From the NCBI GenBank assembly GCA_012031345.1, contig JAAUTS010000002.1, positions 1-51,778 on the forward strand: 51,778 bases of DNA, written 5' to 3'. The notes below the pieces were generated by a model that saw nothing but the letters and a program-made list of their open reading frames with translations, had not been told where the DNA came from and made no database searches. Both the position numbers and the translations under genes were made by a program. The DNA is from Blastochloris sp. (lineage in GTDB: Bacteria; Verrucomicrobiota; Verrucomicrobiia; Methylacidiphilales; JAAUTS01). This document shows, one piece after another, positions 3,924-50,959 of the stretch (positions within the stretch are counted from its first letter, which is position 1; each line of letters starts with the position of its first letter).

Positions 3924-4769
3924 ATGACATGGAAACATGCCCAAGGCCGCTTTGAGATGGGATCGAGTCCCCTGCTCATGGGGATCGTGAATCTGACGCC
4001 TGATTCTTTTTCCGACGGCGGCGTGTTTCATCAAGTGGACAAGGCTCTGGCTCGTATTGAGGTTTTGAGAGAGGAGGGGATGGATCTGGTGGATCTGGGG
4101 GCGGAATCGACCCGACCGGGGGCCTCTCCTGTTTCGTGGAGGAAGAGTGGCGGCGACTGGAGGCGGTGTTGAAGGGAACGCTGGCGCGTTGGCCGGATCT
4201 GGTGGTATCGGTGGATACCTACAAACGGAGGTTGCCCGGCGAGCCTTGGCGGAAGGGGCGGCGATTATTAATGACGTGGGGGAGGGTTTTGGGATGAGGG
4301 TATGGCGGAGTTGTTAGCTGAATACAAGGAGGCGGGATATGTCTGCATGCACAGCCAAGGTCGGCCCCAGACCATGCAGCAAAATCCCGTATATACCGAA
4401 CATGACGTGGTGGGAGAGTTGGAACATTTTTTTAAGGAACGCATCCGGGCCTTTGCTCAAAGATGCGGCAACTTGGAGCGATTGGCGATTGATCCGGGGA
4501 TAGGGTTTGGGAAAACCTTGTCCCATAACCTAGCAATCATCGGCGGGGCTCAACGCTTTCAAGAACTGGGTCAGCCCGTGGTCTGGGGCCTGTCCCGCAA
4601 GTCCTTTGTTTCTCAGGCACTGGGAGTGGGGGCCGGGGAGCGATTGATCGGCAGTCTGGGTGCCTCGGCCCGTTTACTTCACGCGGGAGGCTCTCAAATC
4701 TGGCGGGTTCACGACGTGGCGGCGCACCAACAATTTATCCGTATGTGGTCCGCTTGCTCCTCTGGCTAG
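3924..4769 (+). CDS. folP: Dihydropteroate synthase, interrupted by apparent 1-nt frameshifts
   Basis: [25 protein letters not shown], then in other frames [32 protein letters not shown]. Confidence 0.85.
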
Positions 4770-4950
4770 GGAGTCTTCTGGCACAGAAGGCCTAAACTTT
4801 CTTTTTCAGATTAGTCAGCCTTGCTTCAGGGAGTGAGGCGCATGGACGGGAAGACTCAAGGCGGCAGGTGATCAACCAGCCGCAGCGAGCGAATTCCGTT
4901 TCGTTTTCCCAAGGGCAAGAGTTCCGTTGGGTTCAAGGTTTAAGCTTGAG

Positions 4951-40686: not shown

Positions 40687-40708
40687 TCGCAGTACAAAGA
40701 GAACGCAT

Positions 40709-41103
40709 ATGCACGAGTTTTAGGAGTAGATATCCCCGGAGAGAAGCGCATCGAAGCTTCGCTGCAATACATTTACGGAATCGGGTTGACCCGGGCCAAA
40801 CTGGTTTTGGACGAGGCTGAAGTGGACCCGAACACGCGGGCCAAGGAGTTGAGCGGCCAGCAGATCAACCGTCTCATCCAGGTCATTCAGGCTCATGGCT
40901 TCATGATTGAAGGGGATTTGCGCCGGGAACTGCAGCAGAATCTCAAACGTCTTCAGGGGATCAATTCCTATCGCGGCATCCGCCATAAAAAAGGTCTCCC
41001 CGTGCGTGGCCAACGCACCTCCACCAACGCCCGCACCCGCAAGGGTCCGCGCAAGACGGTCGGTGTGCAGCGCAACAAGGACGCCAAGGCCGGCAAAGTA
41101 TAA
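40709..41103 (+). CDS. rpsM: 30S ribosomal protein S13 (apparent G deletion just after the ATG)
   Basis: [61 protein letters not shown]. Confidence 0.94.
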
Positions 41104-44040: not shown

Positions 44041-44556
44041 TTATGGGCGATAGCCACGACCCTTTTGCCATGTTTTGATCCGATCCGAACACAGCACTTT
44101 TGGCAGATAGCGGTCTTGAGCGAGGAGGGACTCGAGTTTTTCCGCAGCGTCTTTGGGTTTGAGTAAACCTTTTTCGATCAGACGATCGAAGATCCAGAGT
44201 GTGCCGTGCACTTCTACGCACCGGGCTTCGGCCAACAGGCGCAGTTCCTTGTCCCCGGTCAGTAGCAAGGCCCTAAGTGCCACCGCCAGCAGGTACGCCC
44301 CGGCATCCTCTATTTCCAAATCAGGATGGTCGAACAGGCATTGCGCCGACTCCGCCAGAATTTGTGGCGTGGTCTCATGGATGAACAGTCGTCTGGAAGC
44401 GGCGAAGGCCAGCACCCCCGAATGCCCTCCTTTCTGAATCTGGGCGAGGATCAAGTCGGTGGTGTGGGTCTCGATTCCCAGATCAAACCAGATGCCCAAA
44501 GTCCCGGAAAGTTCCAGGTCAATGAGGATGTTGGCGTCCTGAACGGCGATCTTCAT
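44041..44556 (-). CDS. PIN-domain protein (putative toxin-like nuclease)
   Basis: N-terminal MKIAVQDANILIDLELSG, central Glu/Asp, LLLTGDKELRLLAE; overlaps the XRE-ImmA gene. Confidence 0.7.
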   Translation of the reverse strand: MKIAVQDANILIDLELSGTLGIWFDLGIETHTTDLILAQIQKGGHSGVLAFAASRRLFIHETTPQILAESAQCLFDHPDLEIEDAGAYLLAVALRALLLTGDKELRLLAEARCVEVHGTLWIFDRLIEKGLLKPKDAAEKLESLLAQDRYLPKVLCSDRIKTWQKGRGYRP

Positions 44557-45632
44557 GAGAGCAGATCGTCGCCTTTCCGGATTTCAACCAGCGTCACGTT
44601 GAGGAGTGAGGCGGCCTTGGAACGGGTGACCTGCTGTTCCGCCACCGCCCGGAAGACTAGTTGGCGGAAGCGTTGGGAGCGTTCGCAGCCTCGGTAGTCG
44701 TCATCGCCCGGCTCCTTGGCCTTCCAGTTCTCCGCCTTGTAACGGTCCCAGAAGCGTCGGGAAAGCGCGGGGGTGATCAACTCCTGTTGTTTGGCTCGCA
44801 TCATGAGGGAGCCCAGGGAAATGCCCCAGGTGACTTTGATGCTGATCAGTTCTTTCAAGGAAAGGGTTTCCCGGAACCCGCCGAAAGCCTGCCGACAGGA
44901 CTCCGCAGGCAGGATGAAGGACCCGGCGAAGCGGGCGACGATCTTTTCCTCGTCCAGACCGGGAGCAAGGCGGTCCTTGAGCAGGACATGGCCAAGCTCG
45001 TGGATTGTGGTGTGGCGCTTGCGGGTCAGGCATTGGTCGTTGAGGTGTTTGCCGATGACCACGATGGGGGTCGAGCCGATCCAGCCGGAAAATCCGTCGA
45101 ACTCCGGTGGCGCGTCCACCTCACAAACTTTGATGCCGTTCAGTTCCAGCATTTCCATCAGGTTGCCGATGGGTTGGCGTCCCAGGTTCCAGGCATCACG
45201 CAGCTTTTCTGCGGCGGTCTCCGCGTCTTGAGGCGACTCGATTCGCAGCTTACCAAGCGGGTTGTGGAAGGGGTGCTTGAGGCCAAGGATCGATTCGATG
45301 GAGAGATAGCGCTCGAAGTAATCCTGAGCCTTGATTTCAAGGGTCTGGAACTGTTTGACGCCTAATGTGTCGTGTTTGGCGCGGTATTTCACACCCTGGA
45401 TGGCTGGCTCTGTCGGCCGGAAGAAGAAACCTGGAGGTTGGTTCAGGGCTTCCGAGAGGGCGATGAGGAGGGTGCCGTCGGGCATCATCTCGCCGCGTTC
45501 GTATTTGGCCAAGGCGTTGTGGGAGACGGCACCACCGATGCGGTCGGAGAGTTCGCGCAGGGAAAACCCCGCCATCTGCCGCGCCTGCCGCAGCCGTGTT
45601 CCGAAAAGTGAGGTATATTTGGTTTCGGTCAT
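44553..45632 (-). CDS. XRE HTH + ImmA/IrrE-type metallopeptidase fusion protein
   Basis: HTH FGTRLRQARQMAGFSLRELSDRIGGAVSHNALAKYERGE; zinc motif TTIHELGHVLLKDRL. Confidence 0.88.
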   Translation of the reverse strand: MTETKYTSLFGTRLRQARQMAGFSLRELSDRIGGAVSHNALAKYERGEMMPDGTLLIALSEALNQPPGFFFRPTEPAIQGVKYRAKHDTLGVKQFQTLEIKAQDYFERYLSIESILGLKHPFHNPLGKLRIESPQDAETAAEKLRDAWNLGRQPIGNLMEMLELNGIKVCEVDAPPEFDGFSGWIGSTPIVVIGKHLNDQCLTRKRHTTIHELGHVLLKDRLAPGLDEEKIVARFAGSFILPAESCRQAFGGFRETLSLKELISIKVTWGISLGSLMMRAKQQELITPALSRRFWDRYKAENWKAKEPGDDDYRGCERSQRFRQLVFRAVAEQQVTRSKAASLLNVTLVEIRKGDDLLS

Positions 45633-45674
45633 GTTTACAAAATAGTTGACAAATTAAATATTGTAAACCATTAT
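45633..45674. promoter_or_regulatory. Divergent promoter/operator: minus TTTACA-17-TATTTT, plus TTGACA-17-CATTAT, spanned by inverted repeat GTTTACAA-N20-TTGTAAAC
   Basis: Read directly: arms at 45633-45640 and 45661-45668, third half-site-like GTTGACAA at 45645-45652. Confidence 0.55.
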
Positions 45675-45793
45675 GTGCTTATGAAACGAGGTTGCTAATT
45701 TACTGAAGGGGTGGCCCAGCGTGCTGTTATGGGCGACGGTAATGACCAAGCAACTTCGCTACACGGAACGGAACGCATAGAACAAATATCATC

Positions 45794-46754
45794 ATGAAGC
45801 TTACTGATACTCAGCTAAACGTTTTCATATCTAAGGTTCTTCATCTTGGGAAAGGAAAACGGAAGGAATTCCTTACTCAAGTAGATTTCCTTATTCAAAG
45901 TCTGGATAAGAAAATCAAGGAAGACGCATCCTTCAAGGTAAAGGGCTTCAAAAAAACCGGCTCAATCATGAAAGGCACGGTTCTCAAGCCCAGTGGTGAC
46001 TTTGGAGTTGATGCGGATATTGCGGTTTTCTTAGATGTTTCAGAATCTGAAAAAAATGACATCGAAAATCTCCACCAAATCATTCGCAATCTTCTTGTGG
46101 CAGTTTATCCAACTAAGAAGCCACAGGATTTCCGGGTTCAACCTAGGACGCTAGGCATTCACTTTCACACGTCGGGCCTAGATGTTGATCTTGTCCCAGT
46201 AATTCCAATCCCCAAGCAAGAGGGTTACGGATGGCAGCCATCGTCTCAGCGTGGACAGCCCGTTAAAACCTCAATCCAAGGCCAATTGGATTTCATTAAA
46301 AACCGGAGAGATGCGGACCCGAGATTTAAATCCATCGTGCGATTGTTGAAAAAATGGCGGAATGAGAATGAACTCGAGCGTTTCCGCTCTTTCACCATTG
46401 AACTGCTTGTCGCACACCTTTACGACCAAAACGGTGCAGCAACTTCCCTCGAAGACGGGCTCCAGCGGTTCTTCCTTTTTCGTTGCTCAAACTGGCCTTA
46501 CCAAGCCCATCACTTTTCCTGAGCTTGGCAAAGGAGTGAGCTTTCCGAGTGACCCAGTTGTGATTCTCGACCCCGTAAACAAGGACAACAATGTCGCGTC
46601 CCGTCTGACTGATGATGAAAGAAAAGAAATCGTGGGAGGTGCAGAAATGGCATGGTCCACGATAGAGGCAGCGAGCTGGAAGGGTGGGAAAGGCGACACA
46701 TTAGATCTTTGGAAGAAAGTCATGGGACGTTCCTTCACAATCGACCAAGAATAA
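45794..46754 (+). CDS. CBASS cGAS/DncV-like nucleotidyltransferase (CD-NTase), frameshift in a T run near 46480
   Basis: GSIMKGTVLKPSGDFGVDADIAVFLDV (GS plus DxD) and LDVDLVPVIPIP; C-terminal segment LTKPITFPELGKGVSF...WKKVMGRSFTI in another frame. Confidence 0.88.
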
Positions 46755-46756
46755 AT

Positions 46757-47272
46757 ATGAGTTCAACAGGCACACGCACCACCACCTACACAGTCGCTGA
46801 CATCCGCAAAGTCGTCGAAAACTTTGCCGCCGATTTCTCCATGATGGCACAAGCCACGGGATTGCGCACACGTGAAAGCGTCGCATCCGTGGTTTCCGAC
46901 CTGAACATTTTCGCAGAATATGGTTACCTAGTTTCGGTGACGCTGTTCTTGCTCGACAAGGACGGCAACAAACTTCGTGTCGCCTACTACAAGGTCGCGG
47001 ATTCCGCAGCGGGCTGGCAATCGGATGCGCCCGGCAACAACCTCTGGCCCAGAACCGAAGGAGGCTCTTTGTGGGTGCTCGGGACATTGACGGACGCGTG
47101 GTGGAACAAAACAGGTGCCGAAAAGGAAGCATTTATTAAAGCGAGGGGGTTGAATTTCCCATGGTCCAAAACTGATAAGGACACATCGCTCAGTGGGTTG
47201 ACTTCAAGTGCTGGCCAAAAATACGCCAGCAATGGATATGGTTGGGAGCGGACTAATTACAGTCGATTATAA
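46757..47272 (+). CDS. Bacterial HORMA-domain protein (type III CBASS Cap7-like)
   Basis: TYTVADIRKVVENFAADFSMMAQATGLR and C-terminal YASNGYGWERTNYSRL; sits between CD-NTase and TRIP13-like genes. Confidence 0.82.
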   Translation: MSSTGTRTTTYTVADIRKVVENFAADFSMMAQATGLRTRESVASVVSDLNIFAEYGYLVSVTLFLLDKDGNKLRVAYYKVADSAAGWQSDAPGNNLWPRTEGGSLWVLGTLTDAWWNKTGAEKEAFIKARGLNFPWSKTDKDTSLSGLTSSAGQKYASNGYGWERTNYSRL

Positions 47273-47274
47273 TT

Positions 47275-48189
47275 ATGAAAGAAGGAACCGCCGCGTTGTT
47301 TGAACTGGAAACCTCCCTGCCCGATGCCAGGCTTAAGACCCAAGCGGAAAGGCTGGTTGGATTCAAGGCCCGATACGACCGCATTCACCAGGACTTGCGC
47401 CTCCTAATCGACAAGGAAGGTTTGGAAAATTGGAGCAAGAAGCATTACCACAACCGCCTTCCATTGCTGGATTCGTTGTTCGACCGATACCCACTCGTTG
47501 TATTTCACGGAGATGTTGGAACGGGTAAAACAGCAACCGCTGAGGCAGTAACAAACGCACTCGCCGGGGAGCTTGGCAAGGGAGCGCTGCTCTTCAAACT
47601 GAGCACGCGTGTGCGAGGAAGCGGCAACGTCGGAGAAATGAGTTCCCTCATCAACCAAGCCTTCGATATTGTTGGCGAGGAAGCTGGGAAAGCAAAACTG
47701 TCCTTTCTTATCATTGATGAGGCTGACTCACTCGCAGCCAACCGCTCCGGTAGCCAAAGCCATCATGAGGATAAGGTTGCTGTGAACACGCTTATTCAAA
47801 AGATTGATGACGTTAGGAGATTCAACGGCCGTGTGCTGGTCATTCTTTGTACGAACCGATACGAGGCGCTCGATCCAGCAATTCTCCGACGTGCTGCATA
47901 CGTCGAAGAATTTCGACGACCTGATGACGGTGAACGGCGCGAGATTCTGAATCTGGATTGTGAAGGGCTGGGACTGACAGCATCCGCCATTGAAGAATTG
48001 GTACAGCTCACGGGAACGCACGGTCCCCACAAGCTTGGCTACACGTTTTCTGATATTCGCACGAGGCTACTTCCAGAGGCACTGGTACACGCTTACCCGA
48101 CGCGCAAAATTAACCATACTGATTTGATCGACGCAATTTCACGAGTTGCGCCATCACCGACAATCTTTACGACGGAAGATCGCGTATGA
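47275..48189 (+). CDS. TRIP13/Pch2-like AAA+ ATPase (type III CBASS Cap6-like)
   Basis: FHGDVGTGKTATAEAV, FLIIDEADSLAANRSGSQSHHEDKVAVNTLIQKID, LCTNRYEALDPAILRRA. Confidence 0.9.
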   Translation: MKEGTAALFELETSLPDARLKTQAERLVGFKARYDRIHQDLRLLIDKEGLENWSKKHYHNRLPLLDSLFDRYPLVVFHGDVGTGKTATAEAVTNALAGELGKGALLFKLSTRVRGSGNVGEMSSLINQAFDIVGEEAGKAKLSFLIIDEADSLAANRSGSQSHHEDKVAVNTLIQKIDDVRRFNGRVLVILCTNRYEALDPAILRRAAYVEEFRRPDDGERREILNLDCEGLGLTASAIEELVQLTGTHGPHKLGYTFSDIRTRLLPEALVHAYPTRKINHTDLIDAISRVAPSPTIFTTEDRV

Positions 48190-49350
48190 ATCTTCGTGGT
48201 CGCCGAATTCACATCGTTGGGAGTGCTGATCCCACGGCTGATGAAGAGAAACTGGGATATGTCCATTCGCTTGTATCTGAACTGACAAACGCACTTGTGG
48301 CGGAGGGTGCTAATTTCGTTATACCGTTTGGTAAGGAGCCGTTTCTTACAGAACGGGAAGATGGGCTCTCTATCATCTTTGATTGGACCGTAGCTGAAGC
48401 GGTATCCAAAGCCCAAATCAAAGGAATTGCTAAGCCTTCTGGCCCCAATGGTTACCTGATTGCAACCTTGGCAACAAGTAAGACAGATTTCCAAATTCCA
48501 GCAGTTCGTCGCGTTATTTATGAACAACTTAGGGACACTAATTCCATCGGCATCGAATTCCTTGAACCTGGCTGGAGCGCGGGCGCCATTAGCCGTTCAC
48601 GGCTTGCCCAGCTCGGGGACATTCTGATTGCGATTAGTGGGGTCAAGGGGTTGAGCAACTTGCAATCGAATATTCCTCAAGGGTAAGCCGGTCATTCCGC
48701 TCGATATTAACGTGGGTTCTTCTTCGCGCGATGGATCTGGAGGGGCACCAAGACTCTTTGATCGAGCTCGCGCCAAGCCTGGAGACTTCTTTTCAGTAGC
48801 AGCGTCTGCATCCGCAGCTGATTTACTAGACCGAACCCAAACTCGAAATGGAGAAGTCAATGTCATGGTAGTCGTGGCTGCCATCCTTAACCTGATCCAT
48901 GCCCTCGTTCCCCCACGAGTTTTCTACGTCAGACTCCTGAATGACACGCTTCCCGAATATACATCTGTAGAGGAGTTTTTTAGAAAAACCGCCGACCCGC
49001 TTGTTCGAGAATTGGGCTATGAGCCGCTCCAAATGGGGCTTGGAAAGAACGAGTTTGTCTGGATGAATCAAGCCATTTTCGACTCCATGCACCACAGTAG
49101 TGTAGCACTTGTAGATCTGACAGGACTGAGGCCCAATTGCTTTATGGAACTGGGATATTCGCTCGGCAACAAGCAGCGAGTGATTGTATGTGCTCGTGAC
49201 GACACGCGAATTCCATTTGATGCGTTTGCGCTGGAGGCTTTTCAGTGGAAAGAATCTGAAGACCTAGGTAAGAGATTGGACAAGTTCCGCACACATTGGG
49301 AAAGAAATATCAACATGCCAACGCTTGTTCGACCAAAGGAGGCGAAGTGA
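48186..49350 (+). CDS. Putative CBASS effector: N-terminal SLOG-like domain + C-terminal nucleoside deoxyribosyltransferase/TIR-like (DRHyd-like) domain; two frameshifts near 48640-48690
   Basis: HIVGSADPTADEEKLGYVHSLVSELTNALVAEGANFVIPFG and (restored) AISGGQGVEQLAIEYSSQGKPVIPLD; C-terminal SSVALVDLTGLRPNCFMELGYSLGNKQRVIVCARD; ATGA overlap with upstream gene. Confidence 0.7.
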
Positions 49351-49893
49351 AAGCTGAGTGCTATTTTTTCAGTAGATATTGAATCCGCAGGTCCGATACC
49401 CCGGCAAAATACAGCATGCTTTTCTCTAGGCGCGTGTGTGGTGGGTGATCCTACGGTATCGTTTTACGCCGAACTGAAACCCATCACTAAAGAGTTCGTG
49501 GCAGAAGCTCTTAAGATATCTGGGTTTAACCTTGAACGTCTTGAGCGCGAGGGTCAGGCGCCTGAAAATGTAATGAAGGACTTCCGCCGATGGGTTGAAA
49601 CAGTCACCGAGGAGTGCAAACCAGTCTTTGTCGGTTTCAATGGCTGCTTTGACTGGCAGTTTGTGAACTGGTACTGTGAATCGTTTGCCGGGGGCAATCC
49701 ATTTGGGTTTGGTGGAATAGACATCAAGTCGTATTTTATGGGCTTTAGTGGTGAGACGTGGGCGAGATCGACATCAAGCCAACTACCAGAGGAATTTAAG
49801 CCTGACATTCCACAAACCCACAATGCGCTTGATGACGCACGTGCCCAAGCATCGATCTTTCATAAATTATTTACTAAGCGGCGTTCAAGATAG
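49347..49893 (+). CDS. DEDDh 3'-5' exonuclease (CBASS ancillary, Cap18-like), frameshift near 49362
   Basis: Exo I FSVDIESAGPIP, Exo II FVGFNGCFDWQFVNWY, Exo III THNALDDARAQASIF; GTG after GGAGG gives MKAECYF-SVDIE if one T of the T6 run is extra. Confidence 0.8.
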
Positions 49894-50133
49894 ATAGCCG
49901 TAAATGTCAATTCGTTGTGTTGCGCGATCCAAGAACGGCGCCCAGCGGGTCGGTCCTCGAATTTAAGGGTCTAACGGCGTTATTGCCTGAGCAAGAGGTA
50001 ACACCCTTTCTGAGTGTGGGTCTCTTTCAACTGGCTTGGCCTGAGGTGACGGGGAGGTTTAGGAGTGAGGGATCATGGGCCATCAGCCTTTTACGTATCA
50101 ATCTTGCCCTCTTCCGTAATTTCCTGCTACTTT

Positions 50134-50322
50134 ATGAATATGACAACCGGGTATTCCAATTACACCAGAGCCGATGCACGCAAAGAAATTGGAGAAATGC
50201 GCAAATTTACCCAAGAGCTGGTGAAATCACCCGGCAAAGCGCAAAAGCTTTTGATCGAGGCGGGTATTCTTCGCAAATCGGGCAGGGGTTTGGCCAAAAA
50301 ATATCAATCGGCCAGCACTTGA
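50134..50322 (+). CDS. Small hypothetical protein, possible antitoxin partner of the next gene
   Basis: 62 aa, charged; ends 4 nt before the next ATG. Confidence 0.5.
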   Translation: MNMTTGYSNYTRADARKEIGEMRKFTQELVKSPGKAQKLLIEAGILRKSGRGLAKKYQSAST

Positions 50323-50326
50323 GCCT

Positions 50327-50959
50327 ATGCGTCACTCGGCTTGGATATTGGCATACCATGGATGTGATCGGTCTATAGGTGATCAAATCCTCCGTGGTGA
50401 CTCTGAAGTCAAGCCGAGCAACAACGAGTATGACTGGCTTGGGAAAGGTTCTTATTTTTGGGAAAACTCCTACAGCCGCGCCCTCAAGTGGGCTCAATTT
50501 CTAAAAGAGCACCCTTCCTACACTCATAAAGCGATCAAAGATCCGTTTGTGGTGGGCGCCATCATTGATCCCGGAAATTGCCTCGATCTGACAGAAGCCG
50601 AATGTCTCGATATCCTGAAGGAAGCTTACGCGCAATATGTTGATGTGATGCGTTTGGTGGCCAAATACTCGGGTGAGCCGACGGTCCTTCCGAAAAATGA
50701 GCCTGGTTTCAAAGGGGACGAGGATCTAGTCAAACGCAAGTTGGATTGCGCTGTCATCAACTGGCTTCATAAAACGAGAGAAGACCGGAAGCTCAAAAGC
50801 AAGGGACTACAACCCTTTGATACCGTGCGTGGCGCCTTTTCAGAAGGTGATTCGCTTTTTGAGAATTCGAAAATTGAATCCAGAACCCATATTCAATGGT
50901 CGGTGTTGGACCCTGCACGAAGTGTGGTGGCTTATTTCAGACCTCGAATCAGAAATTGA
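50327..50959 (+). CDS. ADP-ribosyltransferase-like (DUF3990-like) protein, possible toxin
   Basis: AYHGCDRSIGDQIL...YDWLGKGSYFWENSYSRALKWA resembles the ART H...Y core; conserved FDTVRGAF and THIQWSV tail. Confidence 0.55.
   Translation: MRHSAWILAYHGCDRSIGDQILRGDSEVKPSNNEYDWLGKGSYFWENSYSRALKWAQFLKEHPSYTHKAIKDPFVVGAIIDPGNCLDLTEAECLDILKEAYAQYVDVMRLVAKYSGEPTVLPKNEPGFKGDEDLVKRKLDCAVINWLHKTREDRKLKSKGLQPFDTVRGAFSEGDSLFENSKIESRTHIQWSVLDPARSVVAYFRPRIRN

Follow-up and report, generated by a model that had tools for sequence, protein, structure and literature searches.

An XRE-ImmA/PIN toxin–antitoxin-like module as a candidate controller of a divergent CBASS operon

Three families of damage-responsive controllers of immune operons, namely CapW, CapH + CapP and CapK + CapS, have been described (PMC9122588, PMC10904395, PMC13373217). 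In the window, which is the whole 51,778-nucleotide stretch of Blastochloris sp. DNA analyzed here, a gene encoding an XRE-ImmA fusion protein lies divergent to a CBASS operon. Does this single protein control CBASS, and if so, is CBASS its proper business? The original prediction took it for a one-protein CapH/CapP-like switch that represses CBASS from a shared operator, and left open how a PIN gene downstream fits in.

XRE-ImmA, its PIN partner and their operator

The XRE-ImmA gene (44553–45632, minus strand) is a single open frame of 359 residues, with an HTH at residues ~14–69 and an M78/ImmA peptidase domain carrying HELGH at residues 211–215. Its profile matches are HTH_3 and Peptidase_M78, together with PADLOC RmrA (5e-44) and capP (6e-7). 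The top PDB match of the predicted structure (pLDDT 92.7) is Thauera CapP (7t5t), with IrrE lower in the list, and the HTH half matches C-proteins, ImmR and P22 C2. The HExxH motif is kept in all 52 related loci. The 3′ end of the gene overlaps by 4 bp a second minus-strand gene (44041–44556) for a PIN-fold nuclease, a predicted toxin. Given the weak sequence evidence for the latter, with a DUF3368 match below its cut-off and no PDB match by sequence, its structure was also predicted. The model (pLDDT 94.4) matches solved structures that include VapC4 and other PIN structures, and the acidic residues Asp7, Asp84 and Asp102 are invariant (19/19). With the CD-NTase ATG at 45794, the three-part arrangement is as originally described.

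Comparison across loci revealed how closely the two minus-strand genes travel together. A PIN gene lies 3′ of XRE-ImmA in 46 of the 52 loci, two of these matches being partial, and usually overlaps it or starts within ~20 bp; two of the six loci without PIN are at contig ends. Among the 22 closest GTDB loci, 21 have the PIN gene and the remaining one is a contig end. An XRE HTH fused to an HExxH ImmA/IrrE peptidase is thus found in a conserved operon with a toxin-type partner. XRE-ImmA accordingly belongs to a RosmerTA-like module, in which it takes the antitoxin-like part and PIN is its partner. We hold this architecture and its operator, both well supported by comparison, with high confidence; toxicity of PIN and its neutralization by XRE-ImmA are proposed. 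A regulator dedicated to CBASS, as originally envisaged, is not borne out, since XRE-ImmA appears as the antitoxin-like partner of PIN in a module that mostly occurs with no CBASS beside it. As to the choice first posed between toxin–antitoxin module and regulator, the former side holds, and the choice itself is probably a false one, as both roles may coexist.

The predicted operator GTTTACAA-N20-TTGTAAAC (45633–45668, no strand) has exact 8-bp arms, with outer half-sites at 45633–45640 and 45661–45668 and the full sequence GTTTACAAAATAGTTGACAAATTAAATATTGTAAAC. Within it lies an extra half-site, GTTGACAA (45645–45652, plus strand), which contains the –35 of the CBASS-directed promoter-like site. 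The inverted repeat and extra half-site are both present where they had been claimed; in relatives, the extra half-site was not found as a conserved feature at the same place. The inner pair GTTKACAA-N8-TTGTAAAC (24 bp, at most two mismatches) gave two strand matches against 0.05 expected from shuffling. In the 3.18-Mb genome, the operator has a single exact match and no second good copy with up to two mismatches was found, other matches being about as common as those of a reversed control. A genome-wide regulon of XRE-ImmA was accordingly rejected, and the uniqueness of the operator points to a local regulon. Across relatives, 45 of the 52 loci have the operator upstream of the XRE-ImmA gene (up to 3/16 mismatches), mostly without CBASS; it thus belongs to the XRE-ImmA/PIN module and not to CBASS.

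The CBASS operon and the divergent promoters

The plus-strand operon comprises a CD-NTase (45794–46754, PDLC00808), a Cap7-type bacterial HORMA protein (46757–47272, bacHORMA_1), a Cap6-type TRIP13-like AAA+ ATPase (47275–48189, profile match), a Cap17-like effector (48186–49350) and a Cap18-type 3′–5′ exonuclease (49347–49893). With CD-NTase, HORMA, TRIP13 and effector genes all present, it is a type III CBASS. The HORMA and TRIP13 genes are intact. Four frame breaks, unnoticed in the original prediction, affect the CD-NTase (near 46476–46480, T run), the Cap17-like gene (near 48647–48683, G runs) and the Cap18 gene (near 49364–49369, T run), every one at a homopolymer run. Elsewhere in the window, at 40708–40760, rpsM (ribosomal protein S13) is without an in-frame start as assembled, off by one base; its frame opens only beyond an ATG that is itself out of frame, a sign of a small indel error in the contig. 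On the 3′ side of CBASS, an ORF at 50327–50959 (plus strand) weakly matches PADLOC PD-T4-9_A (7e-5) and is preceded by a small ORF at 50065–50322, possibly forming another defence gene pair.

Consensus matching recovered both of the divergent promoters originally claimed, spanned by the operator, as unmapped candidates. The XRE-ImmA promoter-like site TTTACA-17-TATTTT (45639–45667, minus strand, 9/12 consensus match) lies inside the operator. The CBASS-directed site TTGACA-17-CATTAT (45646–45674, plus strand, 10/12) has its –35 inside the operator and its –10, a weak CATTAT, directly against the operator edge. It scores highest among the seven promoter-like sites in 44–51 kb, a number close to background (5.0 ± 2.4 expected). 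No further plus-strand promoter-like site was found between 45675 and 45793.

Linkage to CBASS and other immune operons in relatives

In the 22 closest GTDB loci, tblastn detected neither a CBASS cyclase nor HORMA. Weak TRIP13-like matches in three loci (L038, L044 and L051; 30%–35%) were rejected as CBASS, as they come without cyclase or HORMA. The XRE-ImmA protein occurs in 24 of 369 genomes sampled from one class, and no CD-NTase was found by tblastn in the 23 new loci, where divergent cyclases may escape tblastn and several contigs stop close upstream. A TRIP13 search within the phylum yielded one distant relative only. The CBASS linkage is thus a singleton inside the window's own XRE-ImmA clade.

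A verdict of no conserved linkage, drawn from these CBASS-free close relatives, was overturned by reciprocal TRIP13 and plasmid XRE searches. Starting from CBASS, XRE-ImmA/PIN was found on plasmids divergent to a type III CBASS of the same kind in Beijerinckiaceae, Bradyrhizobium and Mesorhizobium. Starting from XRE, it was found with another type III CBASS in Methylobacterium; with CD-NTase-SLATT in Rhizobium gallicum, Agrobacterium and Sulfitobacter; with CapV CBASS in Runella and Roseovarius; with multiubiquitin-E2-ThiF in Neotabrizicola; and, read by eye, with a CD-NTase-like remnant that an IS element interrupts in Sphingobium. Representative cyclases of the linked loci were confirmed by profile. 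An alphaproteobacterial clade of nine rows (support 100/98) has CBASS in the divergent position throughout, in three kinds of which one is a remnant; further CBASS-linked cases, in the window, Runella and Roseovarius, fall outside this clade. Mapping the CBASS label on the tree required four changes, at least three of them on strongly supported branches. The neighbours of other relatives are restriction-modification genes, a Fic gene or a helicase; phage matches are distant. The CBASS association is clade-restricted and recurrent, not general: the conserved divergent linkage that the original prediction asked for exists elsewhere and is absent in the closest relatives.

In a search with the window's XRE-ImmA as query, the top 20 rows represent about nine lineages. 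One representative per lineage was read by annotation, the remaining rows of Sulfitobacter, of Vibrio-Shewanella-Salinivibrio and of Agrobacterium being assumed to share the context of their representative, and eight of the roughly nine lie near a defence operon, which is a raw proportion. L067, L068 and L073 came in via CBASS genes, and L074–L083 and L105–L111 via XRE sequence, many with the CBASS-linked L073 as query; the linkage count thus rests on a modest number of hand-read neighbourhoods, partly ascertained by CBASS-linked queries.

The promoter geometry was compared in ten loci, the nine-row clade plus Neotabrizicola. In all ten, a –35-like TTGAA/TTGAT/TTGCG element starts 7–9 bp outside the operator. 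Five of them also have another half-site, TTGTAAACCG, at 72–73 bp from the first, about seven helical turns, against 0.08 expected from shuffles; shared descent adds to both counts. The window layout differs, its extra half-site lying inside the operator and itself being the predicted CBASS –35.

Several neighbourhoods show further arrangements. In Neotabrizicola (L079, 4083–4860) the multiubiquitin, E2 and ThiF genes are directly divergent to XRE-ImmA/PIN, and in L096 (6982–8433) a ThiF gene lies ~1 kb upstream. XRE-ImmA, mostly with PIN, immediately precedes restriction-modification genes of the same orientation in L083, L105, L110, L111, L054, L062, L146 and L151; the module may serve such operons too. 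A small DUF2188 gene is directly divergent to XRE-ImmA in L106, L107 and L108 (~4670–4896), heading a CapV-CD-NTase operon in L108 and standing without CBASS in the other two. Downstream of a related type III CBASS, Bradyrhizobium sp. 172 (L071, 7668–8884) carries separate HTH and ImmA/IrrE genes, CapH/CapP-like, in place of the fused XRE-ImmA.

A putative switch, its rivals and known systems

From the computed domains, the conservation of catalytic residues, operator and PIN partner, and the recurrent divergent immune linkage, we infer DNA binding, repression, proteolysis, a trigger and PIN neutralization by XRE-ImmA, and propose a putative model. XRE-ImmA would sit, probably as a dimer, on GTTTACAA-N20-TTGTAAAC and so cover both elements, –35 and –10, of the promoter of its own gene. 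With the CBASS –35 inside the operator and the –10 at its edge, CBASS should be silenced by this bound protein as well. On damage or infection, the ImmA half would be activated or removed, by self-cleavage or antitoxin loss; both promoters would be released and the PIN nuclease set free, so that one switch would set off two abortive responses. That the XRE-ImmA autorepressor also controls CBASS at this locus is, with somewhat better than even confidence, our best single explanation. Control of CBASS is favoured by the recurrent linkage, the promoter geometry, the CapP-like model and the presence of CapW in the same slot elsewhere. Counting against it are the singleton linkage in the window's own XRE-ImmA clade, the weak CBASS –10 with a near-background number of promoter-like sites, and the lack of conservation of the extra half-site.

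The main rival, possible yet doubtful, is that the module regulates itself only and adjoins CBASS merely through the clustering of defence islands, with the CBASS promoter further downstream. It would explain why the operator goes with the module whether CBASS is present or not, why many relatives have restriction-modification or other genes as neighbours, and why in the window's clade a single locus is linked. Against it stand the strict nine-row clade with its three CBASS kinds, the constant spacing of the –35-like element and the extra half-sites in relatives, and a predicted CBASS promoter embedded in the operator with no other plus-strand candidate up to 45793. The broken CD-NTase, Cap17-like and Cap18 frames could instead mean that the operon is a decaying remnant and that the common operator controls nothing useful any more. 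This is unlikely, given the intact HORMA and TRIP13 genes; moreover, as all four breaks fall at homopolymers and the rpsM start is off by one base, sequencing or assembly indels are likelier than decay.

Two further readings concern the role of XRE-ImmA itself, and we regard both as highly improbable. In the original one, a CBASS-dedicated CapH/CapP switch with PIN an unrelated passenger, the HTH and CapP-like peptidase in one chain and an operator common to both promoters are accounted for, but a PIN gene following XRE-ImmA in 46 of 52 loci, mostly without CBASS, is what a toxin–antitoxin pair would give. In the other, XRE-ImmA would act as its own repressor but as an activator of the immune operon opposite, occupying a site 5′ to that operon's –35. 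Such a position is open to class I activators, and the alphaproteobacterial operators do lie, in full, immediately before the –35-like element; in the window, however, the –35 is inside the operator, and the half-site also found downstream of the promoter in five of the ten alphaproteobacterial loci is better suited to repression.

If control of CBASS by the XRE-ImmA/PIN module is true, toxin–antitoxin modules would be a further source of immune-operon controllers, and a predicted RNase toxin would be coupled to CBASS under one operator. One protein might then hold off two killing systems until damage or infection. This would give the large, poorly understood XRE-ImmA/PIN family a testable role and offer a ready explanation for the protease domain retained in an antitoxin.

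Our literature search found no description of an XRE-ImmA/PIN module as a CBASS regulator, and the parts of the proposal have known counterparts. A prediction that XRE-ImmA fusions pair with PIN toxins dates from 2009 (PMC2701414), node D25 of the NetFlax network is associated with PIN-like domains (PMC10440598), and a Streptococcus pneumoniae Rosmer antitoxin of XRE-ImmA architecture antagonizes its toxin (PMC12795458; RipAB = Spr1630/Spr1629). The module here resembles RosmerTA/COG2856-Xre (PMC2701414, PMC10440598, PMC12795458) in its one-chain XRE and ImmA/IrrE with a toxin in the same operon, PIN being a listed toxin partner. It differs in facing a divergent CBASS across a common operator, and toxicity and neutralization here are predicted. 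The target and fold of RipA also differ from those of PIN.

IrrE/PprI-DdrO and ImmA-ImmR share the COG2856 peptidase fold and HExxH with XRE-ImmA, and in the model for these systems proteolysis releases the repressor. Repressor and peptidase are separate proteins there, with DNA repair genes or a mobile element as targets. CapH + CapP is reported to control CBASS (Lau et al. 2022, cited in PMC10904395 and PMC13373217), and ssDNA activates CapP and PprI (PMC10904395, PMC13373217). Common to that system and this locus are an HTH repressor and a CapP-fold metallopeptidase beside CBASS. The original idea of fused CapH and CapP functions stands as regards the chain but not as regards dedication to CBASS. 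Two separate proteins are here replaced by a single chain, with a PIN gene in the operon and a divergent orientation. XRE-ImmA may by analogy work like CapH/CapP, with cleavage and ssDNA activation carried over from that system only, yet we do not class it as a member. CapK + CapS (PMC13373217) is similarly damage-responsive and found beside immune operons of several kinds, ubiquitin-like operons among them, but consists of a kinase and a STAS repressor instead of a protease or toxin–antitoxin pair. Finally, for every major type of CBASS a CapW gene has been described that lies upstream on the other strand (PMC9122588), and in a related Enterobacter CBASS a WYL protein occupies the divergent slot, which is the CapW arrangement. 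CapW/BrxR WYL regulators (PMC9122588) thus share with XRE-ImmA the divergent position upstream of the CD-NTase, but are unrelated to it and have neither a peptidase nor a toxin partner.
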